DNA of 24,001 nt from positions 1-24,001 of the IMG/VR virus record IMGVR_UViG_3300006875_000163. One strand, written 5' to 3'. Origin of the DNA: a virus. This document shows positions 141-23,361 of this stretch, piece after piece (positions within the stretch are counted from its first letter, which is position 1; each line of letters opens with the position of its first letter). The translations under genes were made by a program, and so were the position numbers. The notes under the pieces were generated by a model. It searched no databases. It had not been told where the DNA came from and was given only the letters and a program-made list of their open reading frames with translations.

Positions 141-156
141 GCTTTCTGTGGGCCAA
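141..156 (-). promoter_or_regulatory. Candidate sigma-54 (-24/-12) promoter P6
   Basis: Read on the minus strand, TTGGCCCACAGAAAGC has the invariant GG at 154-153 and GC at 142-141, with exactly ten bases between them as sigma-54 requires. It shares the -12 block AAGCT and the upstream AAA with the promoters at 11,189 and 12,102. The predicted start is near 129, 40 nt before the ATG at 89. It sits in one of the few real gaps in the minus-strand block. Confidence 0.6.
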
Positions 157-3224: not shown

Positions 3225-3425
3225 TCAGAACTCTTGGAGATGATAGATCTTCTTACGAAGCTCAGCAACCTTGGCGCGTTTTTCGGGTAGGCTGTGAGTG
3301 GTTGATACAATATAGGGAACTTTCCCTTCTCTGTCATGGAAAGAATCACAGAACTTTTCGAGGTATGCGATCTTCCTTTCGATACGCTGTATGCGCCAGT
3401 TGCGATACCATTTGAATAGATTCAT
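3225..3425 (-). CDS. Small coiled-coil hypothetical protein (66 aa)
   Basis: The ATG at 3425 overlaps the previous stop as ATGA. The product starts MNLFKWYRNWRIQRIERKIA, a basic, tryptophan-containing helix that could lie on a membrane surface or bind nucleic acid. It continues with two heptad-like segments (AYLEKFCDSF; AKVAELRKKIYHL). It lies just upstream of the transglycosylase in the operon, so a helper role in lysis is possible, but nothing shows this. No family recognised. Confidence 0.7.
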   Translation of the reverse strand: MNLFKWYRNWRIQRIERKIAYLEKFCDSFHDREGKVPYIVSTTHSLPEKRAKVAELRKKIYHLQEF

Positions 3426-3832
3426 AGAGGCCAGAAGTATGGTAGGTTGTCTGGAATGTTTGGGAACTTGCTGGAGTAATAGTCTGGTTTCTTTCTTATC
3501 AGATTACTCTGATGTGTCTTGTGTAGATAAGAGCCGAGCCAGTGTGGTTGTATGATGTAAGGGTAAGTGAGAATCTCCTTTTCAAAGTGCGGAAGTAGAT
3601 TGTCAACGTAGCCCCGCCGCCGGGCTTCTTGGCAGATCTTGATAGAGTAAAGACACAACCACGCTGGATAGTCTTTGACCATCTTCACGGCGGGATGACT
3701 GCGCCAGCCTTCTGACTTACCTTGGATTGTGTTGAGGATTTGCAGAGACTCAACGCGCTGCTTCATGAGGCGCTGGGTGTCGAGCACGCGGGCGGACTGT
3801 TCGATGTCGGGATATGGGAGGAAGATTTGCAT
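3422..3832 (-). CDS. Pyrimidine-dimer DNA glycosylase-like protein (Pyr_excise family)
   Basis: The 136-aa product begins MQIFLPYPDIEQSARVLD and continues QRLMKQRVESLQIL, GWRSHPAVKMVKDYPAWL and CQEARRRGY. This is the signature of the MSMEG_6728 / Pyr_excise (PF03013-type) family, distant relatives of T4 endonuclease V. T4 DenV cuts the glycosidic bond at UV dimers and uses its N-terminal threonine after Met removal. Here residue 2 is Gln, so DenV chemistry cannot be assumed. A role in DNA repair or base excision on phage DNA is the best inference. The gene joins its neighbour by an ATGA overlap, which supports this start. Confidence 0.7.
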   Translation of the reverse strand: MQIFLPYPDIEQSARVLDTQRLMKQRVESLQILNTIQGKSEGWRSHPAVKMVKDYPAWLCLYSIKICQEARRRGYVDNLLPHFEKEILTYPYIIQPHWLGSYLHKTHQSNLIRKKPDYYSSKFPNIPDNLPYFWPL

Positions 3833-4758: not shown

Positions 4759-4940
4759 TTACACTCCTTCCATTTGAACTGATTTTTACCCGCGCAATCG
4801 ACCACCCACTCAGCGCGGCCTTTCCTTACGGCTTCTTCGCGCATACTGCTCTTGCCAAGCTGATCGCCCCACAGGATTGCTAAGGACAGAAAACAACCTG
4901 CTACAAGTCCGTACATGCATTGTTCTAAAACTTGGATCAT
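4755..4940 (-). CDS. Small single-pass membrane protein (61 aa)
   Basis: Residues 7-25 (QCMYGLVAGCFLSLAILWG) form one hydrophobic segment. The rest is the soluble EEAVRKGRAEWVVDCAGKNQ, close to a short domain (EAVxxGxAEWVVDxxGxxxFxWK) seen in many small phage membrane proteins. The N-terminus would be short and outside or inside; orientation cannot be fixed. It overlaps the activator ATPase gene above by ATGA. It might be a holin- or spanin-like component for the transglycosylase 1.5 kb downstream, but there is no direct evidence. Confidence 0.65.
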   Translation of the reverse strand: MIQVLEQCMYGLVAGCFLSLAILWGDQLGKSSMREEAVRKGRAEWVVDCAGKNQFKWKECK

Positions 4941-5782
4941 AGCTCACCTTCCTTATCATATTCCGGCAATTCAATCTCTCCTAGCTCTCTCTTTAATAGA
5001 AGATTACGCAACGCCCGAACATTCCCAAAGGAGAATGTCTCGTCGCCGAAGTGTTCCCTTTCCCCCAAAGGCGTCCAGTTTTCCTCGGCGATAATGGCTG
5101 ATGCGACGCATCTGATTTCCTGAACCCCTCTGTCTTTAAGAGAGAATGTCTTCAGACCTAACTCATTGATGCGGAAGTATAGATCCTCTCGGAAGCTTCC
5201 TTCCTTTACCATCTTCAACAGATCTCGATTCGTCGCGAAGACAAAGCGACATTGAATCGGGACTGGATCAACAGCCCCGACGGGCAATACGGTTTTATCC
5301 TGCAAGACTCTTAAGAGCTTAGCTTGATGCGCCAGCGGCAACTCGCCTATCTCGTCGAGGAAAGCAGTGCCCTTGCCGACTGCTCTTAGGAAGCCAACGT
5401 CGCCTCTTGATTTAGCACCCGTAAAGGCGCCGGGCATGTAGCCGAAGAGTTCTGATTGAAAGAGTGTGTCAGTCAAGCCAGCCATGTTCATAGCCTTGAG
5501 AGGCTTTCTCTTATGCGCTAGGATCTTTGCAACTAACTCCTTGCCTGTGCCGCTCGGACCTTCGATAAGGACGTTGTATTTCTGCAAGCTTTCTTCGGCG
5601 TAGGTTATTGCCGCCGTGAGCATCCTCTTGGTGAGAGGATCTTGCGTGGCATAGCATGATGCTATTGACTGAATCGAGTTCTCCTTCAGCGCATCGCCTG
5701 TGATCTTCAACACATCCTTGCGGATGTTATCGAGGAAGCTGTCGGCCGCGGCTGTGTTAAGGACGTTTGCGTGGATGTTCAT
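4937..5782 (-). CDS. Sigma-54 activator AAA+ ATPase (enhancer-binding protein core, no HTH)
   Basis: The 281-aa protein is essentially one sigma-54 interaction domain. It has Walker A GPSGTGKE (75-82), the GAFTGA loop intact at 118-123 inside ELFGYMPGAFTGAKSRG, Walker B GTAFLDEIGE (138-147), sensor I ATNRDL (183-188), arginine finger FREDLYFRIN (about 197-206) and sensor II GNVRALRN (253-260). GAFTGA is the element that contacts region I of sigma-54 and is diagnostic of this family (PspF, NtrC, NifA). There is no N-terminal receiver/GAF domain, and the Fis-type HTH that normally follows sensor II is missing. It must therefore act without its own DNA contact or through a partner. It is in the same operon as the rpoN-like gene. 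Confidence 0.93.
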   Translation of the reverse strand: MNIHANVLNTAAADSFLDNIRKDVLKITGDALKENSIQSIASCYATQDPLTKRMLTAAITYAEESLQKYNVLIEGPSGTGKELVAKILAHKRKPLKAMNMAGLTDTLFQSELFGYMPGAFTGAKSRGDVGFLRAVGKGTAFLDEIGELPLAHQAKLLRVLQDKTVLPVGAVDPVPIQCRFVFATNRDLLKMVKEGSFREDLYFRINELGLKTFSLKDRGVQEIRCVASAIIAEENWTPLGEREHFGDETFSFGNVRALRNLLLKRELGEIELPEYDKEGEL

Positions 5783-5958
5783 TGTGTCTTGGATTTATTT
5801 TTACGTTTGCTATATATCGAAGGCCCGGGATCTCTTAGCTTATACCGCATGATAGCTTTGCGTGCTTCTGCCAGTTCTTCCTTTGTTAGATACTCTTCTT
5901 CAATAGATCCGTGAGTATACTTTGGAACATATTGGTCACCATGTTTACGCTTGCTCAT
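5779..5958 (-). CDS. Small basic hypothetical protein (59 aa)
   Basis: An ATG at 5958 lies inside the end of the HTH gene and the stop TGA at 5779 overlaps the ATPase start (ATGA), so all three genes are translationally chained. The product begins MSKRKHGDQYVPKYTHGSIE, contains a helix EEEYLTKEELAEARKAIMRY, and ends in a strongly basic tail (SKRKNKSKTQ). The 'THGSIEEEYLTKEEL' portion resembles a small phage motif, but I cannot name a family. Being between a DNA-binding protein and the sigma-54 activator makes it a possible adaptor; this is inference only. Confidence 0.65.
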   Translation of the reverse strand: MSKRKHGDQYVPKYTHGSIEEEYLTKEELAEARKAIMRYKLRDPGPSIYSKRKNKSKTQ

Positions 5959-6253
5959 ATTGTTTTAGTTTATTCTTTAGTTGTTGAATCTCAATTTCTA
6001 GGTTAAAGATTCTTGAAGCCATAGCATTCTTCAGATTAGTCAACTCAAAGATCATCTTGTCATAGTGTTCCTTGTGATAAGGAATCTTGCTGATGTTTGT
6101 TACTGTGCCCCGGGAGATTCCGAAGTGATCTCCTACTTGCACGCGCGTTAGGTGTGGGTTTGCGTGGATATATTTGCGGATATGTAACTTCTCCTCAAGT
6201 GTGAGATAGTAGTTCTTGCGGGTGATATGTGTGGCTTTACGTTGATGTGACAT
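5945..6253 (-). CDS. HTH plus coiled-coil DNA-binding protein (102 aa)
   Basis: Residues 36-54 (TRVQVGDHFGISRGTVTNI) form a clear helix-turn-helix of the HTH_23/homeodomain-like type, preceded by the helix LTLEEKLHIRKYIHANPH. Residues 66-100 form a coiled coil (heptads in IFNLEIEIQQLKNKLKQYE), suggesting a dimer. It has one of the few good Shine-Dalgarno sequences of the minus block (AGGAAAGGA, about 7 nt before ATG), so it may be made at a higher level than its neighbours. Its close coupling with the HTH-less sigma-54 activator makes it the best candidate for the missing DNA-binding part. A replication or packaging role (small-terminase-like HTH) is an alternative. Confidence 0.75.
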   Translation of the reverse strand: MSHQRKATHITRKNYYLTLEEKLHIRKYIHANPHLTRVQVGDHFGISRGTVTNISKIPYHKEHYDKMIFELTNLKNAMASRIFNLEIEIQQLKNKLKQYEQA

Positions 6254-6794: not shown

Positions 6795-8966
6795 TTAATT
6801 GACAGACTCTACAAGTTCCTCCTCATCATCTTCTTCCTCCTCAACCTCGACAACGCCAGAGGACTCGGCGGCTGTGAGATCTTCGGCGGTAAGTCTCACG
6901 ACCGCCGCCTTATCCTTGAGTGCCTTCTCAAGTTCGCCCGCCAGATCGACGTTCGATGAGCCGATTGCGTCCACGGATTTGAGTTTCCTCGCCAGCTTAG
7001 GAGCCATGTGATCACTGAGGATTGTGCCCTCGGGAACATAGATCTCTTGCAGTGTGTCGGTGAGGGTTGTGATACGGACACAACGACCGAGAGCTTGAGC
7101 AAACTCTTCGGCCCAATAGGTCATCGTTGATGCGACTTTGCGTGGTCGTGTGTGCTGGTAGCGATGATCCAGTGAGATACCCGTACCTCCTGAGGAGAGA
7201 GTGTAGATACAGAACTCAGTCTCACCATTGAGGAACGCTTGCACGTTCTCGTGTCGTTCCTTTTGGTTTTGATTGTGGAGCTTCATCTCTCTGAGCTTCT
7301 CATTCCGTGCAGCGAATGCATCCTTCGTCATCTCTCGGAAGATTCTCTCGCTTGTGTATTTGATGCCTTTGTGGAATGCGCGGAACTCTTCCTTGCTGAT
7401 GCCGATGTCATCAGACTTAGGCTTTCTTGCTTCATGAGGATTGTCAAGAATCCACATGCCCATCTTCGCAGCGATCTCTGCCGCGCGCGTCTCGGGCAGA
7501 AGCTCCTCGGGCTTGATCTCTTTGTTGCCGCCCCAGATTAAGGAGATCTTGTCTTTAGTTAGACCCTTAGACTTGAAGTATTCAGACTCACAGAGCTTCA
7601 TGACTAGCTCCTTGAGAGTCTCGGTGAAGCGGATCGCTATGACTGGCGCATAGCCTTGTTGGTGAGCGGCGATCGCATCAGCGACCCATGTGTCTACAGT
7701 AGCAAGCTCGGCCGCTCGGGCCATGACCATGAAGGCGACCATGACTTGACCTTGTGGATCTATGCTGCGACCTGTTCTTTCAATGGCCTCAAGATAATTC
7801 TTCATCGCATTCTTGAGCATGTTCTTGTTGGCCTCGTCGGTGATCTCAAAGAGCTTGACTTTGTTGAGGGCCTTCACCTTTTGAGGATCGCCCGGCGGCT
7901 TAACAAGGCGATCGCCCAGCGCACCGGCCCAGCGTTCGAGTGCTGCTGCATTCGCCGAGCGGGGATCTGCGCCGAGGGTAAGAGTGCGAGCGAACTCTGG
8001 GAATGTCTCTCGCGTGAGAGGTCTTGCTCCATACGGCAAGCGCATGGCAAGAGTCATGAACATCGTATCCCATACAGTCACGGCGGGCGTGGCTGAAGTG
8101 AAGACCCACTTGATAGATGGGAATTGAAGGAAGGCTTCTAAGTATTTAGTGCGCTTAGACTTCTCCTTCTTGATCTCCTGACACTCGTCGAGAATGATAA
8201 GCTTGGGCGCTGCTTGCTCTGGCAGGTTAAAGCGGATGACCTTTGTAGCTTGGCCGAAGATCTCCACTGTTTCCTCCTTAAAGAAGTTCTTGTTCTTCGT
8301 GGAGAAGACTTCGTTGTATGACCACACGTCGACGGCCAGCCCGACGCTTTCGAGACCTAGCTTTTTGAGAGTGTCCCTAAAATCCAGCACCACGGACTTC
8401 TTGGTGATGATTAGGATCGGTGGGAATAATCCTAAGAAGTTACAGAACTTTTGCGGGTCATGTTTCTGTAGCCACAGTGCGAGACCGGCGGCGATCCAGC
8501 TCTTACCTTTGCCGGTGCCGAGTGGGACAAGTGCGCCGTTGAGATTGTCTTTGTACAACACATCGAGCAGCGCGGCGATAGCTTTCTTCTGTTGGGGTTT
8601 GAAGTCGAGACCGTTGGGGAGTTTGATGTCGATTGTGGAGTAAGTTCTTTTTTCTCGAAGAGCAGCTTCCTCTGCGAGGCGCAATGCTTCCTTCTGTTGG
8701 CGCAACGGAGCTTGATTAACCCAGCCTTGAAGAAATCCCAACAACGTAGCGTAGTCTAGTTTGATGGATGGAACGACAGCAAGACTAAGCTCACGCTGCA
8801 AGAAGTCCCACTCATAAGGCTCCTTGCGATAGAGATCTGTCAGCTTCTTTGCTTGCGCTCGCGCGGTGGTGAGAGCGGTCTGTTGAAGACGATCTTCTTT
8901 GCTGGTATAGGTTGGTTCTGCTGGCGCGGCTTTCTTAACGCCAGATGGGGTTGAAAAGATATTCAT
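6795..8966 (-). CDS. Superfamily 2 DNA helicase/translocase (SNF2/DEAD-like), 723 aa
   Basis: Motif I is PLGTGKGKS (148-156), motif II DECQ (259-262, LIILDECQEI), motif III TSATP (289-293). In the C-terminal lobe there is LSSGGTGISL and motif VI QALGRCVRI (624-632). This is a full two-lobe SF2 ATPase. The N-terminal 120 residues form an extra charged domain, and the last 15 residues are almost all acidic (EVEEEEDDEEELVE). That tail could mimic DNA or bind a basic partner. The phage replication/recombination setting suggests a role in replication initiation, fork remodelling or recombination. No DNA polymerase or primase is in the window. Confidence 0.88.
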   Translation of the reverse strand: MNIFSTPSGVKKAAPAEPTYTSKEDRLQQTALTTARAQAKKLTDLYRKEPYEWDFLQRELSLAVVPSIKLDYATLLGFLQGWVNQAPLRQQKEALRLAEEAALREKRTYSTIDIKLPNGLDFKPQQKKAIAALLDVLYKDNLNGALVPLGTGKGKSWIAAGLALWLQKHDPQKFCNFLGLFPPILIITKKSVVLDFRDTLKKLGLESVGLAVDVWSYNEVFSTKNKNFFKEETVEIFGQATKVIRFNLPEQAAPKLIILDECQEIKKEKSKRTKYLEAFLQFPSIKWVFTSATPAVTVWDTMFMTLAMRLPYGARPLTRETFPEFARTLTLGADPRSANAAALERWAGALGDRLVKPPGDPQKVKALNKVKLFEITDEANKNMLKNAMKNYLEAIERTGRSIDPQGQVMVAFMVMARAAELATVDTWVADAIAAHQQGYAPVIAIRFTETLKELVMKLCESEYFKSKGLTKDKISLIWGGNKEIKPEELLPETRAAEIAAKMGMWILDNPHEARKPKSDDIGISKEEFRAFHKGIKYTSERIFREMTKDAFAARNEKLREMKLHNQNQKERHENVQAFLNGETEFCIYTLSSGGTGISLDHRYQHTRPRKVASTMTYWAEEFAQALGRCVRITTLTDTLQEIYVPEGTILSDHMAPKLARKLKSVDAIGSSNVDLAGELEKALKDKAAVVRLTAEDLTAAESSGVVEVEEEEDDEEELVESVN

Positions 8967-8970
8967 AATA

Positions 8971-9276
8971 TTATAGGTCCATCAACTTCGCGATCACTTC
9001 CTCAGCGTTCTTGAAACCGTAGGCTTGAGGCGTTCTTGAGATCAGAGAGATGTACTCGCCAAAGACAATACTCTCTGCGGTTGGTTTGTCAAGCATGGCG
9101 AAGGATTTATTCAGGGCATCGCGCCTATTGAGGAGAGGCGTAAGCTTTTTCTGCACCGCAAGCATCTCATCCTCCAGCCGTTGGCGTAAGACTACATTCT
9201 TGGTAGTAGCCTTGTCCATCTTGGCTTTGAGGCGTGCTGCTTCCTTCTGACATTTCTTCTGTAGGTTTTTGTTCAT
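8971..9276 (-). CDS. Coiled-coil hypothetical protein (101 aa)
   Basis: The N-terminal half is a lysine/glutamate/alanine coiled coil (KKCQKEAARLKAKMDKATTK). A smaller helical domain follows (SIVFGEYISLISRTPQAYGF; NAEEVIAKLM). The start at 9276 overlaps the end of the preceding gene by 110 nt, an unusual length for this compact operon. Internal ATGs at 9219 and 9165 would shorten the overlap. The frame ends 5 nt before the helicase ATG. Function unknown. Confidence 0.65.
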   Translation of the reverse strand: MNKNLQKKCQKEAARLKAKMDKATTKNVVLRQRLEDEMLAVQKKLTPLLNRRDALNKSFAMLDKPTAESIVFGEYISLISRTPQAYGFKNAEEVIAKLMDL

Positions 9277-9880
9277 CTTGTTGTGGTTGATTTTCTTGGT
9301 TAATTTTTTCTAACAGACCGCGAGTGTCTACAATACGGAGAACTTCTTCGATGGGAAAGTAACAGTTGATGTTGTTGAACGCACCTTTTAGGGCATCATT
9401 GAGTTGTCTACTCTTATTCAAATAAACTTCCTCGCCCTGCGATGTGATCGCGGCGGCGACTTCGAATGCTTTCTGTTTGGTGAATAGCTTCGCCTTCGAC
9501 AAGGCGTCGGCGATCATTTCGATCCTGAGTTCCTCCGCTTTTTTGTGGAGGAAGGATATGTCAGAGGCAAGGTGGTTTGCTCGTAGTGTTCTCCGTCTTT
9601 CGTCGGAAAGGTTCCACTCGGTCGCGTCCCAGATGACGCTGTAGGATAATCCGTCCTCGTCGACTCTCTGAATATAGATATGCTCACCCGCGCAGTGAGC
9701 TTTGATCCAGTCCGCTGTTTCATTTGAAGCAACAATCGCATGGGCAAGATTATTCCCTGGAGTTCTTCGGATGAAGTGACCTCGTTCTGTATCGACATGA
9801 CAAGAACAGGCTGGGAAAAGCAATCCCCAGAGGGATTCGCTTGTGATGATTTCTTTTTCGTTTTCATTTTGAGGAAGCAT
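9167..9880 (-). CDS. Hypothetical protein following rpoN (237 aa)
   Basis: The start lies inside the end of the rpoN-like gene (17-nt overlap), so the two are probably translated together. The protein has a mixed N-terminal domain with two cysteines and histidine (FPACSCHVD; AHCAGEHIYI), a helical middle (ISFLHKKAEELRIEMIADAL; LFTKQKAFEVAAAITSQ) and a low-complexity Q/E/S/T tail from about residue 196. That tail lies in the 110-nt overlap with the next gene. Close linkage to sigma-54 makes it a candidate modulator (anti-sigma or adaptor), but no such family is recognised. Confidence 0.7.
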   Translation of the reverse strand: MLPQNENEKEIITSESLWGLLFPACSCHVDTERGHFIRRTPGNNLAHAIVASNETADWIKAHCAGEHIYIQRVDEDGLSYSVIWDATEWNLSDERRRTLRANHLASDISFLHKKAEELRIEMIADALSKAKLFTKQKAFEVAAAITSQGEEVYLNKSRQLNDALKGAFNNINCYFPIEEVLRIVDTRGLLEKINQENQPQQDEQKPTEEMSEGSSTPQSQDGQGYYQECSLTPTAGG

Positions 9881-11153
9881 AGACTTTACGGAGATGCGAG
9901 GGTTGAATGCCTAGTTCGGCTCTGTACTTGGCGATTGTGCGGCGAGCGATTGTGTTCTTGAGAAGAACAACGATGTCCTCGTCGCTAAGAGGTCTTGACT
10001 TGTCCTCGCGTGAGATGATCTCTGCGATTTGGTTTTTTATAGACAGGTTACTCTGCATGGTATTTTCATTGTGGTTTATGATTGCGCTGGTGAAGAAGAA
10101 ACGGAGTTCGTATGTCCCGTGCGGCGTGCTGATGTATTTGTTATGGACTGCGCGTGAGACTGTGGTCTCATGGATCTCGCACACGGTGGCGATCTGCGCC
10201 ATGATGAGCGGCTTGAGATCTTTGATATTCCCGGTCTTGAAGAACTCAGATTGATAATCTACAATAGCCTTCGTGACACTGAAGAGTGTCGACTGGCGCT
10301 GAGTGATTGAGCGAATCAGAAACTTACCTTGCTTCACGCGATCTCGGATGTATTCTCTGTCCGCCGCAGAGAGCTTGTCGAGATAGTTGAGGTAAGTCTG
10401 ATTGATCTTGTAGATTGGAAGACGCTCGGACGGGATCGTAATGTTGAAGTCTTTGTCGAGAAAGATCTCTGCGTCTTTGGGCGTGTGCGTTGAAGAGGAG
10501 AATTCGGAGGCTGGGTTGTAGTTTAGTTTGCTTAGAGATTTATAGAGATTCTCTATGGTCGTAAAGGTTTCGTTGTATTTTTTGCTTAAGAGAGGAATCT
10601 GTCTTCGTGTAAATAGATCTTCGTCTTGTTGGAGGATCTTGTATGCTAGTGAGTCTTCTGGAAGTTGGAGACAGAGACAATCAGCCAGACCAAGTGCGCC
10701 TAAGCCTTTGGGTTCGAGAGTTCTTATGAATCTAAGTGCATCCCGTTGCGGTGTGCTTAGTGCATCAAGATCGCCCGTGTAAAATCCCCGCTCGTCGAGC
10801 AGATGTATAATGCTCGTATCGTGTTGCGCTATAAGAAGTTCTCTTAACAAGTATTCTTCAAGAGTCTCATCTCTTGATGGATTATTCTCAAGAGGATATT
10901 CCTCTCGGGCGGGCAGGCTGTAAGAACTAGTCCACTGCATGTCTTGCGGCAACTCTGCTTTGTCATTCCGAAAAAGAATTTCTTCTTCGGGCGTGTCTCT
11001 ATCGAGGAGTTCGACACATGGATTATCTCCGACAAAAGACTCCATCAGATTGTGGAGTTCACACAGCGGTGCCTGTAGCAAGGCGAGAGACTGCTGAAGT
11101 TGTGGACTCAGGATAAGACTCTGAGTCTGATTAAGTGCGAGAGAAAACTTCAT
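9864..11153 (-). CDS. rpoN-like: Phage-encoded sigma-54 factor (RpoN-like), 429 aa
   Basis: The N-terminus matches sigma-54 region I: SLALNQTQSLILSPQLQQSL and ALLQAPLCELHN, then DNPCVEL, parallel to the Q-rich region I of bacterial RpoN. The C-terminal half has the conserved core (RSITQRQSTLFSVTKAIVDY, FFKTGNIKDLKPLIMAQIA, HETTVSRAVHNKYISTPHG, YELRFFF). The RpoN box is ARRTIAKYRA at 403-412, against the consensus ARRTVAKYRE. The length is slightly below the usual 450-500 because acidic region II is short. Region I is kept, so it should still need an ATP-driven activator, which the same operon supplies at 4,937-5,782. It is the first gene of the long minus operon and has a -24/-12 promoter of its own, 24 nt of predicted leader upstream. 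This implies positive autoregulation. Confidence 0.95.
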   Translation of the reverse strand: MKFSLALNQTQSLILSPQLQQSLALLQAPLCELHNLMESFVGDNPCVELLDRDTPEEEILFRNDKAELPQDMQWTSSYSLPAREEYPLENNPSRDETLEEYLLRELLIAQHDTSIIHLLDERGFYTGDLDALSTPQRDALRFIRTLEPKGLGALGLADCLCLQLPEDSLAYKILQQDEDLFTRRQIPLLSKKYNETFTTIENLYKSLSKLNYNPASEFSSSTHTPKDAEIFLDKDFNITIPSERLPIYKINQTYLNYLDKLSAADREYIRDRVKQGKFLIRSITQRQSTLFSVTKAIVDYQSEFFKTGNIKDLKPLIMAQIATVCEIHETTVSRAVHNKYISTPHGTYELRFFFTSAIINHNENTMQSNLSIKNQIAEIISREDKSRPLSDEDIVVLLKNTIARRTIAKYRAELGIQPSHLRKVYASSK

Positions 11154-11188
11154 TTTGGCTAGTGGTGGTTGTTAGCCTATGCAAAGGA

Positions 11189-11204
11189 GCTTCTAGTGTG
11201 CCAA
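11189..11204 (-). promoter_or_regulatory. Candidate sigma-54 promoter P1 (rpoN operon)
   Basis: On the minus strand TTGGCACACTAGAAGC has GG at 11202-11201 and GC at 11190-11189, exact sigma-54 spacing. The -24 half (TTGGCAC) matches the bacterial consensus. The predicted start near 11177 leaves a 24-nt leader before the rpoN ATG at 11153. The -24 element is the right arm of a perfect dyad (GTGCCAA, 3 nt, TTGGCAC), and a third half-site lies at 11223-11228. It shares 18 of 22 positions with P2. Confidence 0.75.
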
Positions 11205-11228
11205 GTTTTGGCACCTGTGAGATGCCAA
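11199..11228 (-). repeat. Alternating TGCCAA/TTGGCA half-sites over P1
   Basis: Three half-sites occur within 30 bp: TGCCAA at 11199-11204, TTGGCA at 11208-11213 and TGCCAA at 11223-11228 (plus-strand orientation), giving two overlapping dyads. The proximal one contains the -24 box of P1. This could be an operator for a regulator that competes with sigma-54, or extra sigma-54 docking sites. A dyad of the same kind overlaps P2 and P5. Confidence 0.5.
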
Positions 11229-11253: not shown

Positions 11254-11293
11254 CAAAAAAGCCTCTGTGAGATTGCTCCCACAGAGGCTTTGT
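11254..11293 (-). terminator. Rho-independent terminator of the 215-aa gene
   Basis: A perfect 11-bp stem (AAGCCTCTGTG at 11259-11269 with its complement at 11280-11290, 10-nt loop) is followed on the minus strand by a run of six U (11255-11260, partly in the stem). It lies 52 bp past the stop of the gene at 11,345 and just before promoter P1, so it separates that gene from the rpoN operon. Confidence 0.85.
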
Positions 11294-11344: not shown

Positions 11345-11992
11345 TTAGACCTTCGCGGCCTTCTTCGCCTCGCGCTTGGCCTTCGCGGCCGAGAGTTCGT
11401 TGGCCTTGGCGAGAAGCTGCGCCAGAGAGGCGATGAGGTTAGACTGCTTGGCGATCGCAGCGTCCTTGTCGCTGACGTTGAGAGAACGGGCGATATCGTC
11501 AGACCACTCGCCAGCGAGGGCAAACACAATCGAGCCGATCTCAGAGCGAATGCTTTCGATCTTCTTGAGGACAGACTTCTCAGTCTCACGATCCGCAGAG
11601 ACGCCATAGATGAAGGCGGCGAAGTAGTCCGGAGTGTTGCCCTTGCTGAGATAGGCTTCAGAAGCGTCCTCAGAGATATCCAGCAAGTGCTCGCTGACCA
11701 GATCGCTCAGCGCATTAGAGATGCGCTTGGTCTCGGTGACAGAGCCGTCTTCGTTCTTCACCTTCGTGACGTGCTCGGTCGGGATCTCAGCGAGAGCTTC
11801 GCCGCGCTTGACCCAATACTGCAGGTCAGAAACCGCCAAGACAGGCTTCTGGAAGGAGACGATGCGCTCGGGAGACTTTGCAGTCTTGCGGACATGACGC
11901 TCCGCGGTGGTGAAGATAGGATTGCCGTCGGTGTCGCTCTGGAAGACAGAGCCAGCAAACGAGGCAACGAGTTCGAGGTTCTTAGTGCTCAT
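11345..11992 (-). CDS. Monocistronic 215-aa protein with basic tail, unknown
   Basis: No family was recognised. The N-terminal part (NLELVASFAGSVFQSDTDGN; FTTAERHVRKTAKSPE) looks folded with beta strands. The middle is acidic and helical (SNALSDLVSEHLLDISEDAS), and the last 25 residues are an Ala/Lys-rich helix (AKAKREAKKAAKV) like histone- or SSB-linked tails, suggesting DNA or RNA binding. The gene stands alone: promoter P2 with a 98-nt leader in front, a strong terminator behind, and an A-rich leader without Shine-Dalgarno. Codons end in G/C more than its neighbours. Together these imply high, separately controlled expression, as for a phage DNA-binding or nucleoid-type protein. Confidence 0.8.
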   Translation of the reverse strand: MSTKNLELVASFAGSVFQSDTDGNPIFTTAERHVRKTAKSPERIVSFQKPVLAVSDLQYWVKRGEALAEIPTEHVTKVKNEDGSVTETKRISNALSDLVSEHLLDISEDASEAYLSKGNTPDYFAAFIYGVSADRETEKSVLKKIESIRSEIGSIVFALAGEWSDDIARSLNVSDKDAAIAKQSNLIASLAQLLAKANELSAAKAKREAKKAAKV

Positions 11993-12101: not shown

Positions 12102-12117
12102 GCTTCTTGAATGCCAA
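12102..12117 (-). promoter_or_regulatory. Candidate sigma-54 promoter P2 (215-aa gene)
   Basis: Minus-strand TTGGCATTCAAGAAGC has GG at 12115-12114 and GC at 12103-12102 with exact spacing. The predicted start is near 12090, 98 nt before the ATG at 11992. The block AAAACTTGGCA, four variable bases, AGAAGCT is shared with P1. The -24 box is one arm of a dyad (GCCAAG, 6 nt, CTTGGC). It lies directly after the terminator at 12133-12184. Confidence 0.72.
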
Positions 12118-12363: not shown

Positions 12364-12624
12364 TTATGCATCTTTGATGTTTATAACACAAGTGCCTTGT
12401 TGAAACGCTGCGCCATTCGTACCTTTTGCCTTGCGGGCAGTGACTCTTTTATGCACGCGAAAAGCATCAGGATGCATAGGCTGCACTGAGCCGCCTGTCT
12501 TGTGGCCGAAGTTCAATGCGCCTTTGTAAGACCATTGCGGGGCGCATTTGATGCACCTGTCAAAGCCGAGAGCTTTGCGCTCGGTGTCGATGATTTGGAG
12601 GCAACGAAGACAGCGATTTGTCAT
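12364..12624 (-). CDS. Zinc-ribbon protein (86 aa)
   Basis: The ATG at 12624 overlaps the upstream stop (ATGA) and has a good Shine-Dalgarno (AGGAAAGGA, spaced about 11 nt, or GGAAG at about 7). This start is preferred over the ATG at 12651. Two CxxC knuckles (CLRC at 5-8, CIKC at 24-27) form a compact four-cysteine zinc site. A basic C-terminal domain with HKTGGS and RVHKRVTARKAKGTNGA follows, likely for nucleic-acid binding. Function unknown. Confidence 0.72.
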   Translation of the reverse strand: MTNRCLRCLQIIDTERKALGFDRCIKCAPQWSYKGALNFGHKTGGSVQPMHPDAFRVHKRVTARKAKGTNGAAFQQGTCVINIKDA

Positions 12625-12746
12625 AGGAGTTCTTCCTTTCCTAAATCCCATCCTCCTAAATCGTCAGAAGGCTCATCGTCGTAGATGCTCAATTCGCGAC
12701 GCAAGTCTTCGAGTGTTGGTTGTTCGTCTTGTGGTTCTTCGTTCAT
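12621..12746 (-). CDS. Small acidic hypothetical protein (41 aa)
   Basis: I chose the ATG at 12746, 10 nt after the previous stop. An in-frame ATG at 12782 would overlap that gene by 26 nt. The product (MNEEPQDEQPTLEDLRRELS and onward) is very acidic with one amphipathic helix, and its end (GGWDLGKEELL) codes the Shine-Dalgarno of the next gene. Small acidic phage proteins are often inhibitors or DNA mimics, but nothing here shows that. Confidence 0.55.
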   Translation of the reverse strand: MNEEPQDEQPTLEDLRRELSIYDDEPSDDLGGWDLGKEELL

Positions 12747-13636: not shown

Positions 13637-13673
13637 AGTCCTAGACTTTGCATCTAGTCTTTACCTTGTAGCG

Positions 13674-13742
13674 TGTGGATAGTTTGAAGAAAGGAAGGTT
13701 TGAATAAAACCATTTAGTGCGTGGATATTGCGTTGTGGATAA
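13674..13742 (-). other. DnaA-box-like cluster, candidate replication origin
   Basis: Three sites lie in one orientation: CTATCCACA (13682-13674), ATATCCACG (13728-13720) and TTATCCACA (13742-13734), reading the minus strand. The last is an exact consensus DnaA box and the first differs only at the tolerated first base. They lie in the loop of the 17-bp inverted repeat 13655-13671/13752-13768, at the point where leftward transcription begins. A plausible place for replication initiation with host DnaA. Confidence 0.45.
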
Positions 13743-13764
13743 TGCGCAACACTACAAGGCAAAG

Positions 13765-13844
13765 ACTAAATGCAAAAGCCTTGCGAGTCACCTATTGTTC
13801 TCTTTGCAAAAGGCAAAGCAATAGCGCAAGGCTTTTGATTTAGT
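13765..13844 (-). repeat. Long nested hairpin
   Basis: ACTAAAT plus the 13-base CAAAAGCCTTGCG (13765-13785, one bulged G at 13772) pairs with 13825-13844. Inside, CTATTG pairs with CAATAG and CTTTGC with GCAAAG, closing a 5-nt loop. All pairs are Watson-Crick, 32 in total, with bulges only on one side. No U-run follows on the minus strand, so it is not a typical terminator on that strand. On the plus strand a six-T run follows at 13844-13849. Confidence 0.65.
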
Positions 13845-14545
13845 TTTTTGAGGTTGTTTGTTTGGTTAAGCTACCAAAGGCAACCAACAAAGAGTCTTTT
13901 GTTTTTGCGTTTCTGTCGTGTTAAATCCTTTAGACAGTTTCTTAAACCAAAGGAAGGTTAACGCAAAGAGCCGTCGTTAGGCATTGCACCTAACACGTTT
14001 TTCTTTTGGTTCCGGTCAAGGCCAAGCCAACCAAAAGAGTCTTAAAGACTCGTGGGCTTTTGTTTTTGTGTTAGGCTTCACTTTCAATGGCGTTTTAAGC
14101 CAATCGTTTGTAGGGAAAACCTAGAAAGCTACTAACTAACACTCTAACAAGAGCCTTTCCTATTCACGCAAGGAAGAGTCGCGAGTAAATCCCGCAACTT
14201 GTACGTTTAACGTCTAACGTCTCTTTGCTAAATGCGTTTGAGGTTTTAGATCTTAACATTAAACAAAGAGAACCGGTTTTTTATTCTTACTTTAACAAAA
14301 GGGGATTTAATGTCCACAAAGCTACTTTGTCCGATTCTTTGTTGTTTCTCTTAACAACTTAGCTTTTCCCGTTGCTAGGTTAAATGCGTTTCTACCGATT
14401 CACCTAGATTCTTATCTTAGCTTAAACTCTAAGATAACAACTTCACGCTACTTCTAAAGAATTATTACCGTTCCTTTGGAGTGTTAGTCACAAAGGCACA
14501 CTTTGCTTTATTAAATCCGGTTCTCTTGTATTATTCAAACCGGGC

Positions 14546-14567
14546 TTTGTGTGTGCTAGGTTCACTC
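14546..14567 (+). repeat. Left arm of 22-bp inverted repeat flanking the HTH gene
   Basis: TTTGTGTGTGCTAGGTTCAC followed by TC is matched in inverted orientation at 15043-15064 with one difference in 22 bases. The one difference would be G-U in minus-strand RNA. The arms enclose the 126-aa gene; inside each arm a further local hairpin and a shared AGTGTGAAGT word occur. Confidence 0.75.
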
Positions 14568-14590
14568 TCCCGCTTTAACACGGGAGAGTG
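14563..14590 (-). other. Perfect 10-bp hairpin after the HTH gene
   Basis: CACTCTCCCG pairs with CGGGAGAGTG around an 8-nt loop, 15 bp past the stop of the HTH gene. It would fit a terminator, but no U-run follows on either strand. It overlaps the inner end of the left inverted-repeat arm. Confidence 0.6.
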
Positions 14591-14604
14591 TGAAGTGTTA
14601 CCGT

Positions 14605-15849: not shown

Positions 15850-15984
15850 TTACAAAGAGCTTCAATGCATAGAGCTTCTATGCATAACCCTTCGATCCCT
15901 TGCGTTTCTATGCATAGAACCTCAATGCATAGAGCCTCAATGCATCTTTGTTCTACCCATAGCACTCCAACGCATCCCGACGCG
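15850..15984. repeat. Nine 15-bp tandem repeat units (enhancer candidate or short repeat peptide)
   Basis: Consensus ATGCATAGAGCYTCW, in strict 15-bp register from 15850. Units at 15865, 15910 and 15925 are nearly identical; those at 15895, 15955 and 15970 are decayed. The array lies 120-255 bp before the predicted start of P3, where activator sites of sigma-54 promoters usually are. On the minus strand the same DNA reads as a pentapeptide repeat LCIEA (frame 15846-16034). Several base changes fall at third codon positions (ATT/ATA/ATC, GAA/GAG), so a coding role cannot be dismissed. Confidence 0.7.
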
Positions 15985-16076: not shown

Positions 16077-16092
16077 TTGGCCTCTTTGGTGC
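16077..16092 (+). promoter_or_regulatory. Candidate sigma-54 promoter P3 (terminase/late block)
   Basis: TTGGCCTCTTTGGTGC has GG at 16079-16080 and GC at 16091-16092, exact spacing. The predicted start is 16104, only 3 nt before the ATG at 16107, so the message would be nearly leaderless. The match beyond the invariant bases is weaker than in P1/P2 (no A at the fifth position, GTGCTT at -12). The 15-bp array lies upstream. Confidence 0.55.
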
Positions 16093-16106: not shown

Positions 16107-16658
16107 ATGAGCGATTTAATGATGCGAAATCAGATTCTGGGTCTTAGAAGGGCCGGGATGAGTTGTGAAGAAATAAGTGCGGCTTTGGAGGTAGATAGTA
16201 TGGTCGTGCGTTTGGCCTTAGAAGCCGCCGGTGGAAGTGCTGTGTTGCGCAAGGAGGCTCTTAAAGAAGAGGATATCACAGACGATGTCTCCGAGGCCGA
16301 AGCCAAAGAAATGATGGGCATCATCAAGGACATAGCCCGTAACGAAGAAAGCGGCGTTTATGCCCGCCTGAACGCGGCTAAGTATGCCCACGGCGCCAAG
16401 CGCGGATATCACAAACGTCATCTTGATCTTAACGTCGGCTCGGGCGAATTGCTCCTTAAGATCAACGAAGCCTATGCCTCAGCGGCCATGCGCGCCCGGG
16501 CCGCGTTGGGTGGTCAAAGTCTCACGGCCAAAGAAATCAACGTCATAGAAGCCCCAATAACCGTAGCCGCAGAGCTTACTCAAGAATCCCCAACCGATCA
16601 CGAATCCCCAACTCAATCACAGCCTGCGGCGCCGAAACCCCGGCCCTTTAAGTTATGA
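16107..16658 (+). CDS. terS: Terminase small subunit (183 aa)
   Basis: The ATG at 16107 is preferred. A TTG 30 bases earlier is in frame but lies in the P3 promoter. The N-terminal 45 residues form an HTH (ILGLRRAGMSCEEISAALEV), as in small terminases that recognise the packaging site. A helical oligomerisation region follows, then a Pro/Gln-rich tail (QPAAPKPRPFKL). Its stop overlaps the large terminase start as ATGA, the classical terS-terL order, which is the main support for the call. It is the first gene of the rightward late block. Confidence 0.8.
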   Translation: MSDLMMRNQILGLRRAGMSCEEISAALEVDSMVVRLALEAAGGSAVLRKEALKEEDITDDVSEAEAKEMMGIIKDIARNEESGVYARLNAAKYAHGAKRGYHKRHLDLNVGSGELLLKINEAYASAAMRARAALGGQSLTAKEINVIEAPITVAAELTQESPTDHESPTQSQPAAPKPRPFKL

Positions 16659-18424
16659 TCAAAGCCCCAATCTCGTCCGATACACTCAAGCTCGTTCAAG
16701 CTCGCAAAGCGCTAGAAGCGGAGAAAGCTGCTGAGAAAGCCCGCGCTAAGGAAGCTAAGAAGAAAGCCATTGAGACTCCGCCCAAGGCGCCTGAAGCTGC
16801 CGCCGTAACTGAGCAACCAACAAACAAGCGCTACATCGCGCATCAGATTGACACCCCAGCGGATTTGCTTCTCGCCCACAGGCCTGACTTAAAGCTCTAC
16901 AAATGGCAAGCAGAAACCCTGTTTCAACTCGCAGGATATACCGACATCAATGATCTCGATCTGCCTAAAACTCGACCAACCGACAAGACGCCGTTATACT
17001 ACAATCTTGTCGCAGCCAACGGAAGCGGAAAAGATCAGGTCGTTATTAGCTCCTTCGCTGTCTGGTTTTGCCTTTCCAAAGTCCGTTCTCGATGCGTCAT
17101 TACGTCATCTTCGTACGAGCAGCTTAAAGATCAGACGTATAAATACATAAAAAACATTTGCGAAGAGATCAATGTTTCGTATGGCCGTAAGGTCTTTGAG
17201 ATCGTTGAGTTCTTGATCACATGCAACGACACCGGCTCAGAGATCAAATGCTTTGTGACAGATGACCCCGGCAAAGCCGAAGGTCGTCACCCGTTCGACG
17301 AGCCCGGCGCTGAGATGGCTGTCATTATTAACGAGGCAAAGTCGATCACGGACGAAATGTTTCAGGCTTTTAGTCGATTCACAGGCTATAACTACTGGCT
17401 CGAGATCTCCTCGCCCGGCAAGAACTCCGGCCACTTTTTCAAGCGCTGCACGCGCTCAAAGTATACCTTTCCAGACAAGCTTCACGTTGGCGAATTCTAC
17501 TGGCGCAGAGTTACAGCCTTCGATTGTCCTCACCTTCTCGGCAAACACATCGAGCATCTCAAAGACGAACATGGCGAGCAATCCCTTATTTATCGAAGTC
17601 AAGTGTTGGCTGAGTTTACCTCACTCGACGAGGCTGCATTTATCCCCTCAACTCTTTTCGAAAACTACCCAAATAATCCACCTCGTACGTTTGGATTGCC
17701 CAATCGGGCGGGCATCGACCTATCGCTCGGCGGCGACGAAACTGTGGCGTACTTCTTTGTCCATGGAAAACTCCACCTTCGAACAACAAAGATTCGCAAC
17801 GAGGCAATTCTCCATAATCAGATCATCAGTTGGATTAAAGAGTTCAACATTACGCCATCTGAAGTACGCATTGACGATGGCGGTCTGGGGCGACCCATCG
17901 TGCAGCGCGTGCAAAACGCTGGTTATGATGTCGTGCCGATACGAAACGAAGCCCGTTCAAGCAACCCGAATTTCTACAAAAACAGAGGCGTTGAAAACTG
18001 GAATCGTCTTAAGCGTGCTATTGAAGATCGTGCCTTTCCTACAGTCAATGACGATCTCACTCGCCAACAACTTTGCACGCGTGGTTTCTCGGTTAAAGGC
18101 ATTGTTACATATTTAGAGCCTAAAGCGGAGATGCGCTCTCGCGGCCTGTCCTCACCCGACCGAGCAGACGCGTTGGCGTTGTGTTTTGATGGTGTGCCGT
18201 TGGCAGTATTCAAGGAAGAAGTTCTGCACACAACAGAACCCGAAAGCCGTTTTGCAGAACTCTTAGAGAGGAACAAAAAAGGCCCATTAACTTTCGATGA
18301 AAAGACAGAACTTACAATCCTCTGGGGTCAAATGACTCACAGACCGGCACAAGAAACGCTAAATTCGGCTGAGCCGCGTGAACAATTGCGCGGGCAATAT
18401 CACAAATTCGTAACCTCTAAATAA
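16655..18424 (+). CDS. terL: Terminase large subunit (589 aa)
   Basis: The motor domain has Walker A AANGSGKDQV (about 120-129), Walker B AVIINEA (222-228) and the coupling motif ISSPG (251-255). The RNase-H-like nuclease has its three acidic clusters: GIDLSLGGDE (353-362), IDDGGLG (406-412) and SPDRADAL (500-507). All motifs are intact, so it should power DNA packaging and cut genome ends. The first 50 residues are an extra Ala/Lys-rich helix (KALEAEKAAEKARAKEAKKK), often a regulatory or TerS-contact element. The P-loop has N in place of R (ANGSGK), as in several phage terminases. Confidence 0.95.
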   Translation: MIKAPISSDTLKLVQARKALEAEKAAEKARAKEAKKKAIETPPKAPEAAAVTEQPTNKRYIAHQIDTPADLLLAHRPDLKLYKWQAETLFQLAGYTDINDLDLPKTRPTDKTPLYYNLVAANGSGKDQVVISSFAVWFCLSKVRSRCVITSSSYEQLKDQTYKYIKNICEEINVSYGRKVFEIVEFLITCNDTGSEIKCFVTDDPGKAEGRHPFDEPGAEMAVIINEAKSITDEMFQAFSRFTGYNYWLEISSPGKNSGHFFKRCTRSKYTFPDKLHVGEFYWRRVTAFDCPHLLGKHIEHLKDEHGEQSLIYRSQVLAEFTSLDEAAFIPSTLFENYPNNPPRTFGLPNRAGIDLSLGGDETVAYFFVHGKLHLRTTKIRNEAILHNQIISWIKEFNITPSEVRIDDGGLGRPIVQRVQNAGYDVVPIRNEARSSNPNFYKNRGVENWNRLKRAIEDRAFPTVNDDLTRQQLCTRGFSVKGIVTYLEPKAEMRSRGLSSPDRADALALCFDGVPLAVFKEEVLHTTEPESRFAELLERNKKGPLTFDEKTELTILWGQMTHRPAQETLNSAEPREQLRGQYHKFVTSK

Positions 18425-21889: not shown

Positions 21890-21905
21890 CTGGCATATCG
21901 TTAGC
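21890..21905 (+). promoter_or_regulatory. Candidate sigma-54 promoter P4 (major capsid)
   Basis: CTGGCATATCGTTAGC has GG at 21892-21893 and GC at 21904-21905, exact spacing, followed by AAAA. It opens 20 bp after the scaffold stop and predicts a start near 21917, giving a 146-nt leader before the capsid ATG. A separate strong promoter for the capsid gene matches the need for several hundred copies per particle. Confidence 0.62.
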
Positions 21906-22062: not shown

Positions 22063-23361
22063 ATGCCAGCAACATGGGACTTGCCGCGTTCAAGCGGACT
22101 TTGGAATCAGCAAGACATCGCTAACTACAACCGCCTTCCGATCTGGATGGCGATCCAGCAGACCAAGAAGATGCAGATGTGGTCGCGCTGGAAGGACATG
22201 TTTCCCAAGATCAAGTGGAAACAGAACATGGGTGACATCCTGCAGGGTGTGATCGCGGAGAACTCCCCGATCGTCAATCAGGTTCATCGCCCGAAGAACA
22301 TCACCGAGCTGCCGCTCAAGACCGTAGCGAGCACTTGGGAGCGCACGAATCAGAGCCGCGTCAAGCGTCATAACTTCGAATCCCCGCAGTTTAACTTCCT
22401 GCCTTCGTTCCGCGATTTCCGCACGAAGCAGCTGAAGTTCGCCGCTGAGGATCTCTCGAAGCAGATTGCTGTCGGCTATGACTTCTTCACGCGTGACAAC
22501 GTGTTCCAGAACTCGCCGTTCGTGTACATCGTTGGCAACACCACCGCTGGTGAGTTGCCTCTGGTGAACGCCCCGGCTGCTCTGCCGACCGATACCAGCG
22601 CGATCAAGGACACCGCTTGGGTTGCCGCTGCGGCCGCCAAGATTGGTTCCGACGACAACGGTTTCCTTTCCTATCGGCAGATTCAGGCCGTCGCTTCCTA
22701 CGCGAAGAACTACCTGATGATCCCGCCGATGGAAGGTATGCAGAGCGGCGCCCCGGCTGACAATGAAATGTCGAAGGGTAAGTACGTTCTGCTCGGCGGT
22801 TCTGAGATCTATGAAGGTCTCGCTTTCGACACCCACGTGTTGAACACCAAGCCGCTGGCGATGAACCTCCTGAATAGCTCCTTTCAGGGCGCTATCGGGC
22901 CGAACATCATCTTCCGCGAAGAGTTCTATCCGCTGCGTTTCGCTGAGGATGGAACGATGCCCGCGCCTGAGATCGAGCTGTTGCTGCCTGACAGCGGCTA
23001 TTCGACCCCGAACGCCACTCGTCAGACCGTCATCAATCCCGCTTATGCGGCCGCTCCGATCGGCGTTGCGTTCCTCATCGGCTACAACGCCTATGAGCAG
23101 ATCGACGTGGGTCCGCCGCCCAGCGAGTTCACTGGCGCTTCGATCAACGGCAAGCGCTTCAACCAGCTCACTTGGAACGGCGAAGTTCGCCTGACCGACA
23201 ACGTGCTGGTCAACTATGGTTCGAATAACCTCGACACCAACAAGTACGGTGAGTTCCTGCAGCTGATCGCCGACACCGTGCTCGGCATCATCGGCAACAC
23301 TAACCGTAACGTCATACCCATCATCTATCGCCGCCAGATCGCCCCGTCGCTCTTCGTCTGA
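22063..23361 (+). CDS. Major capsid protein (432 aa)
   Basis: The order portal, small protein, scaffold, this gene and the usual capsid length support the call. The sequence (ANYNRLPIWMAIQQTKKMQM; KIKWKQNMGDILQGVIAENS) and its repeated loops with many Pro, Asn and Gly fit a HK97-fold or P22/N4-type capsid, but I cannot assign a subfamily. Codon usage changes clearly here: third positions are more often C or G and optimal-looking codons dominate, as for a highly expressed gene. The leader carries a moderate purine stretch (CGAAAG) before the ATG and the gene has its own promoter P4. Confidence 0.82.
   Translation: MPATWDLPRSSGLWNQQDIANYNRLPIWMAIQQTKKMQMWSRWKDMFPKIKWKQNMGDILQGVIAENSPIVNQVHRPKNITELPLKTVASTWERTNQSRVKRHNFESPQFNFLPSFRDFRTKQLKFAAEDLSKQIAVGYDFFTRDNVFQNSPFVYIVGNTTAGELPLVNAPAALPTDTSAIKDTAWVAAAAAKIGSDDNGFLSYRQIQAVASYAKNYLMIPPMEGMQSGAPADNEMSKGKYVLLGGSEIYEGLAFDTHVLNTKPLAMNLLNSSFQGAIGPNIIFREEFYPLRFAEDGTMPAPEIELLLPDSGYSTPNATRQTVINPAYAAAPIGVAFLIGYNAYEQIDVGPPPSEFTGASINGKRFNQLTWNGEVRLTDNVLVNYGSNNLDTNKYGEFLQLIADTVLGIIGNTNRNVIPIIYRRQIAPSLFV

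Follow-up and report, generated by a model that had tools for sequence, protein, structure and literature searches.

On the minus strand of the window (the whole 24,001-nucleotide stretch of viral DNA that was analysed), genes and signals follow one another in the order gene 11345-11992, terminator, P1, rpoN, gene 9167-9880, gene 8971-9276, helicase gene, small genes, activator gene 4937-5782 and recombination genes. The window is identical to part of IMG/VR record 3300025872_000083, which has 49,266 bases: comparison over two segments of 21,150 and 2,944 bases gave 0 mismatches. The original prediction placed rpoN and the activator gene in one operon, and in agreement with this both were found in a single strand-uniform cluster with packed genes between them, the activator being present in all 16 records tested (93-100%) and more conserved than rpoN. 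Late genes form a block on the plus strand, among them one for a terminase-like protein (16655-18424), the best matches of which in the phages collection were Akkermansia phages (30.5 and 28.6%). A tRNA search of the window found none. The features on which the analysis turns are as follows.

11345..11992, minus strand: gene predicted to be driven by P2, 215 aa, 49-50% identical in relatives G017 and G018
11258..11291, minus strand: intrinsic terminator upstream of P1, 15 pairs
11223..11228, minus strand: further upstream TTGGCA half-site, its inverted-repeat partner kept in only 14 of 19 records
11199..11213, no strand assigned: inverted repeat TGCCAA-AAC-TTGGCA, its right arm being the -24 box of P1
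11187..11204, minus strand: P1, candidate -24/-12 promoter TTGGCACACTAGAAGCTC, of the form GG-N10-GC
9864..11153, minus strand: rpoN, coding for a predicted sigma-54 of 429 aa
9167..9880, minus strand: gene adjoining the rpoN 3' end, its ATG overlapping the end of rpoN
6795..8966, minus strand: helicase gene of the rpoN/activator cluster (Pfam ResIII, 2.5e-07)
4937..5782, minus strand: sigma-54 activator (bEBP), AAA+ sigma-54 activator match of 3.4e-49

Several other regions were recorded in passing. The product of 3422-3832 resembles pyrimidine dimer DNA glycosylase (Pfam 2e-24), and some 1 kb at 13640-14600, amid small upstream genes, has no long ORF and many repeated short motifs. Repeats of the ATGCATAGA type occupy 15860-15960, within a long non-coding AT-rich stretch that separates the divergent gene blocks, and may mark an origin of replication or a control region. 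In another viral record (L035, 6142-11334), a late protein of 1730 aa has an ART-PolyVal domain.

The rpoN open reading frame codes for a complete sigma-54, its AID (2.5e-11), core-binding (3.8e-20) and DNA-binding (1e-48) Pfam domains all scoring over the cut-off, and the product aligned end to end (1-423) with sigma-54 of E. coli (E 3.1e-42, 148 bits). Residues E329 and R334 of the phage protein align with E378 and R383 of the E. coli factor, which were reported in the relevant part of PMC5505868 as residues crosslinked to DNA. The AID stretch SPQLQQSLALLQAPLC, the helix-turn-helix (HTH) motif HETTVSR and the RpoN box ARRTIAKYR were invariant across 13 relatives, and both the domain content and the residues of the RpoN box and HTH place the predicted protein in the sigma-54 (RpoN) family.

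Genes of this clade were located in 21 viral records, 16 of them by a single-protein search and 19 by an alignment search, with a motif search adding L130 and L134; the promoter counts exclude the two records with only a partial rpoN gene (L014 and L053) and accordingly refer to the 19 records with a 5' flank. PHROGs v4 held no family for the phage sigma-54 at E 0.01. In the phages collection (50,697 records) 15 records matched rpoN; the one examined, PQ159901.1 ('Helicobacter phage Pt11468_1'), was rejected as a phage carrier, its broken rpoN lying beside lptB fragments in what is probably host DNA.

The -24/-12 site before rpoN

The original prediction had placed rpoN behind a sigma-54 promoter, P1, with a leader of 24 nt, and this was upheld in its essentials; the site reads TTGGCACACTAGAAGC (11204-11189, minus strand). 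The core, TGGCACACTAGAAGC at 11203-11189 (minus strand), presents GG and GC elements 12 nt apart from start to start, and with the C at 11189 taken as -12 the predicted transcription start falls at 11177, giving a leader of 24 nt to the rpoN ATG at 11153. GG at -25/-24 and GC at -13/-12 thus stand at the fixed spacing of a sigma-54 promoter; the full consensus TGGCAC-N5-TTGC is not matched by P1, the -12 box of which is AAGC rather than the usual TTGC, with RGC in its relatives. Taken alone, the single site is no better than chance: matches in the window to TGGCA-N6-TTGC with up to two mismatches numbered 53, as against 75 expected. The significance of P1 derives instead from its conservation, TGGCA-N7-RGC being kept 34-60 nt before rpoN in all 19 rpoN-carrying viral records while flanks, leader length (predicted at 8 to 34 nt) and, in L130, even the upstream sequence vary. 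When the window was scored with a matrix constructed from P1 sites only, P2 took second place with 19.7 bits, ahead of a match at 11.3; on 40 random windows the best match averaged 13.7 bits, with a maximum of 19.6. These data support the identification of P1 as a sigma-54-type promoter directly before rpoN.

The same letters lend themselves to a second reading, whereby a sigma-70-type promoter overlaps P1, with TTGGCA as its -35 box and a poor -10 box 16-18 nt further on, and the housekeeping polymerase makes rpoN. TTGGCA does match a -35 box at five of six positions, and it starts the best sigma-70-like pair within the 120 nt tested in 18 of the 19 records (8-9 of 12 matches). However, the -10 differs between records and the spacing shifts among 16, 17 and 18 nt, the conserved RGCTC at a fixed distance is left unexplained, and a sigma-70 scan lists no site at P1, the region being at chance level (15 vs 15.3). 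Moreover, the P1-like site of relative G017 has GTGGCA in place of TTGGCA. A sigma-70 origin of rpoN transcription is consequently considered distinctly unlikely, and P1 is treated below as a -24/-12 site.

The palindrome TGCCAA-N3-TTGGCA that overlaps the -24 box was found in 19 of 19 rpoN-carrying records and is absent from G017. It might in principle be the operator of a regulator, its overlap with a -24/-12 look-alike being accidental, and its retention in L012, in which the two have become separated and the palindrome sits just upstream of the promoter core, speaks for such a role. Against this, the correctly spaced core persists with no palindrome in G017 and at P2, P3, P4 and P8, which makes an accidental overlap highly improbable. 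Under the preferred reading of P1 as a promoter, surplus free sigma-54 may sit on P1 by way of the palindrome and so cap its own supply.

It had also been claimed that a strong terminator isolates P1 from upstream transcription. The terminator is indeed present in the window and, as judged by reading of the sequences by eye, in 18 of 19 rpoN-carrying records (a finder demanding perfect stems returned 2 of 19); it is not obligatory, being missing in L130. These observations bear on the further possibility that P1 exists but rpoN mRNA arises mostly by read-through past a leaky terminator from P2 or earlier promoters, self-activation then being minor. The position of P2, which precedes P1 by 0.9 kb on the minus strand, and the L130 record are compatible with that route, whereas the strong terminator in 18 of the 19 records and in G017 opposes it. 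P2 is, in addition, itself a -24/-12 site, so that transcription arriving by this route would still be sigma-54-dependent. Predominant read-through was judged unlikely, and P1 is retained as the probable promoter of rpoN.

Further sites and relatives without rpoN

P1 belongs to a set of six or more similar sites, and the proposition that its loop would be the main source of expression was for that reason not sustained. Four other sites in the window were retained as candidate promoters.

12102..12116, minus strand: P2 TGGCATTCAAGAAGC, before gene 11345-11992; second-best match of the P1 matrix; syntenic in G017 and G018
16078..16092, plus strand: P3 TGGCCTCTTTGGTGC, before the late operon (16107-16658, then the terminase-like gene)
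21891..21905, plus strand: P4 TGGCATATCGTTAGC, before gene 22063-23361; identical in 8 other records
141..155, minus strand: P8 TGGCCCACAGAAAGC, before a gene starting outside the window, beside a Sak4-like gene

P3 has a weak form in the window (TGGCC..GTGC), outside the top 12 matches of the P1 matrix, and was recognised via relatives, which at this place have TGGCAY...AAGCTTT, or in G017 TGGCATTAGGCTTGC with a canonical -12 box. At the place of P4, G017 has TTGGCACAGCACTAGC; P8 recurred at the corresponding position in G003, G004, G008, G009, G017 and G018. Outside the window, sites of the P1 form were seen at two more places (G001, 28929 and 47005). Counts that include coding sites pointed in the same direction: TGGC-N9-GCTY occurred at 53 sites in six records vs 16 for a reversed control, and TGGCA-N7-RGC at 53 vs 19 for its control in eleven records. 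The product of gene 11345-11992 had no Pfam or PHROG match.

Some candidates were set aside. P5 at 23962, which is conserved but may be coding sequence in the window, was dropped, and the promoter tally leaves out sites within genes, namely TGGCAATACAAAGGC in homologues of gene 12364-12651 and TGGCCCACGATAAGC in the exonuclease gene. As separate observations, the G001 site at 47005 (L036, ~9980-10030) coincides in part with an inverted repeat that has T's behind it, making it terminator and -24 box in one, and the leader after P4 (21885-22062) resembles a structured RNA with 45 predicted pairs, 11 of which are kept through two-sided changes among five sequences including G017; no Rfam family matched this leader at the gathering threshold.

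A search with the activator returned 33 loci, four at only 54-62% identity, and two of these lay on sufficiently long records, G017 (49,848 bases) and G018 (23,549 bases). Nine of the ten records given lacked a sigma-54 DNA-binding domain, seven of which end soon upstream of the activator and were not counted; in G017 and G018 no such domain was found. These distant relatives nevertheless keep the activator, the gene order, the terminator and a P1-like site. G017 and the window are syntenic, the order in G017 being P2, P2 gene, terminator, P1-like site, 9167 homologue, helicase and activator, without rpoN: between the P2 gene and the 9167 homologue, there the first gene after the P1-like site, it has a terminator, then TGGCACAAGCTAAGC, then ATG. 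At the corresponding place G018 has a terminator, TGGCACAAGTTATGC and then an extra small gene; a tRNA-Gln gene lies between its P2 site and P2 gene (L205, 18948-19023).

P2, P3, P4 and P8 likewise recur at syntenic places, also in G017, where P2 reads TTGGCACAGCCGTAGC. As a P1-like site is present in G017 and G018 in the absence of rpoN, it follows that rpoN is optional, taking first place after a promoter that exists without it. The circuit in relatives lacking rpoN is probably the same one, served by host sigma-54, and the common core of the loop is presumably the activator together with host sigma-54; that rpoN was gained rather than lost is tentatively preferred. The proposal of an orthogonal promoter code, in which an RRGC -12 box would mark DNA read by the phage sigma-54 and not by that of the host, was rejected as unsupported because G017, without rpoN, has TAGC and AAGC sites and because the HTH of the phage factor is of host type.

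Host sigma-54 and the activator

The likely host phylum was sampled through 387 genomes, these being the phylum of a Lentisphaeria MAG, Verrucomicrobiota in GTDB. A sigma-54 match was obtained in 378 of the 387 (best 43%, 233 bits, vs 148 bits for the E. coli factor), and the helix reading the -12 box is HETTVSR, as in the phage factor, in each of 12 cellular matches taken from among the best. In a tree of 27 rows the phage sequences formed a clade (100/100) joined at 88/88 to the best cellular matches by a long branch, a link that is suggestive only because of that branch and because the rows were chosen as best matches. The resemblance of the phage factor, closest to Verrucomicrobiota-type sigma-54, is to that extent suggestive. 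The peptide alignment search also returned six cellular sigma-54s; the rpoN search of cellular genome contigs gave no match, and no terminase match was found in the 387 genomes at E 1e-50. We infer from the shared helix and the wide occurrence of the host factor that host sigma-54 can read P1 and could start the loop.

The protein coded at 4937-5782 has the motifs GPSGTGKE, GAFTGA, LDEIGE, REDLYFR and GNVRAL and matches solved activators; its Walker and GAFTGA motifs are kept throughout a 19-row alignment, apart from SFTGA in L177, so that the AAA+ sigma-54 interaction domain expected of a bEBP is present. The AAA+ domain is preceded by approximately 60 residues, and beyond GNVRAL there are only 23 more. 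No HTH family match was obtained for a C-terminal HTH, which is usual but not universal among bEBPs. The AlphaFold model of the protein is weak (mean pLDDT 58). Comparison of relatives revealed no conserved promoter between the helicase gene and the activator, and a sigma-70-type TTAACT-17-TATCAT there was discarded as not conserved. Just upstream of the activator, 5945-6253 codes for a small HTH protein (CENP-B_N, weak), possibly a DNA-binding partner of the activator.

The proposed circuit and known systems

Sigma-54 polymerase waits closed at a promoter until an activator opens it. The earlier suggestion that a small amount of host or phage sigma-54 starts the operon was thus half right: the host factor is a plausible source, but sigma-54 alone cannot start the loop because the activator is required. 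With that amendment, a positive loop would follow from established sigma-54 biology and is partly supported. At the start, host or first phage sigma-54 plus a little activator would act at P1, the first activator molecules coming from leak, from read-through or from a host activator in trans. The activator, a AAA+ ATPase with no recognised domain for signals or for DNA binding, should open promoters from solution once made; sigma-54 and activator would then rise together and the switch would reach further promoters, among them P2, P4, P8 and, for the late genes, P3. In the branch to which the window belongs, a Verrucomicrobiota-like rpoN directly behind P1 would free the circuit from the host sigma-54 supply.

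It is probable, on the comparative sequence data, that P1 is a real -24/-12 promoter with rpoN as the first gene it drives and that an activator-plus-sigma-54 switch spreads from there to other promoters, taken jointly. A wider reading is offered more tentatively, at slightly less than even probability: this family of uncultured phages would run nearly its whole programme on sigma-54, through -24/-12 promoters before the replication cluster, the late operon and a capsid-region gene and through an enhancer-free phage activator; the ancestral circuit would have used host sigma-54, one branch having captured a host-type rpoN behind P1 to give an autocatalytic switch, the supply of which the palindrome confined to rpoN-carrying records may cap. 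In these statements transcription, activation, the loop and its start are deduced from observed genes, motif, conservation, synteny and the presence or absence of rpoN.

Phage sigma factors in general are well known, and T4 gp55, SPO1 gp28/gp34 and the sporulation-like factors belong to the sigma-70 family and need no ATPase. PspF and NtrC carry a C-terminal HTH; the phage activator has the same AAA+ domain and GAFTGA loop as activators of this type, and differs in ending so soon after GNVRAL. Like the phage sigma factors considered in the pertinent sections of PMC9429907, the window's factor would be a phage specificity subunit redirecting host core polymerase, whereas here a sigma-54 is combined with a phage activator; those sections report phage sigma factors in under 15% of the phage genomes examined, and the terms sigma54 and rpoN are absent from the main text of that paper. 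Searches of the open-licence PMC literature brought to light no phage described as having its own sigma-54, or its own activator as well.

FleT is described in the relevant part of a 2020 review (PMC7175178) as the only known bEBP without both regulatory and DNA-binding domains. Compared with FleT as so described, the phage activator is similarly an AAA+ core only, and differs in being a phage gene product with its N-terminal residues before the AAA+ domain. Autoregulation of cellular rpoN by its own sigma-54 promoter has been reported, in the portion of PMC12316311 concerned, to be enriched in classes including Verrucomicrobiia. The phage arrangement resembles this in placing rpoN behind its own sigma-54 promoter, and departs from it in that the gene is a phage gene, the activator lies in the same cluster and the promoter also occurs without rpoN in relatives. 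In line with the reported autoregulation, two of 12 host-type rpoN loci (L217 and L219) showed TGGC-N8-TGC ~50-70 nt before the likely start, a crude pattern scored without a chance control.

An ATP-gated, all-or-none switch would constitute a different way of timing infection, and the sigma-54/activator pair might be of use as a small, self-amplifying switch for expression. Comparison of relatives with and without rpoN could reveal how a virus takes over an entire transcription layer.
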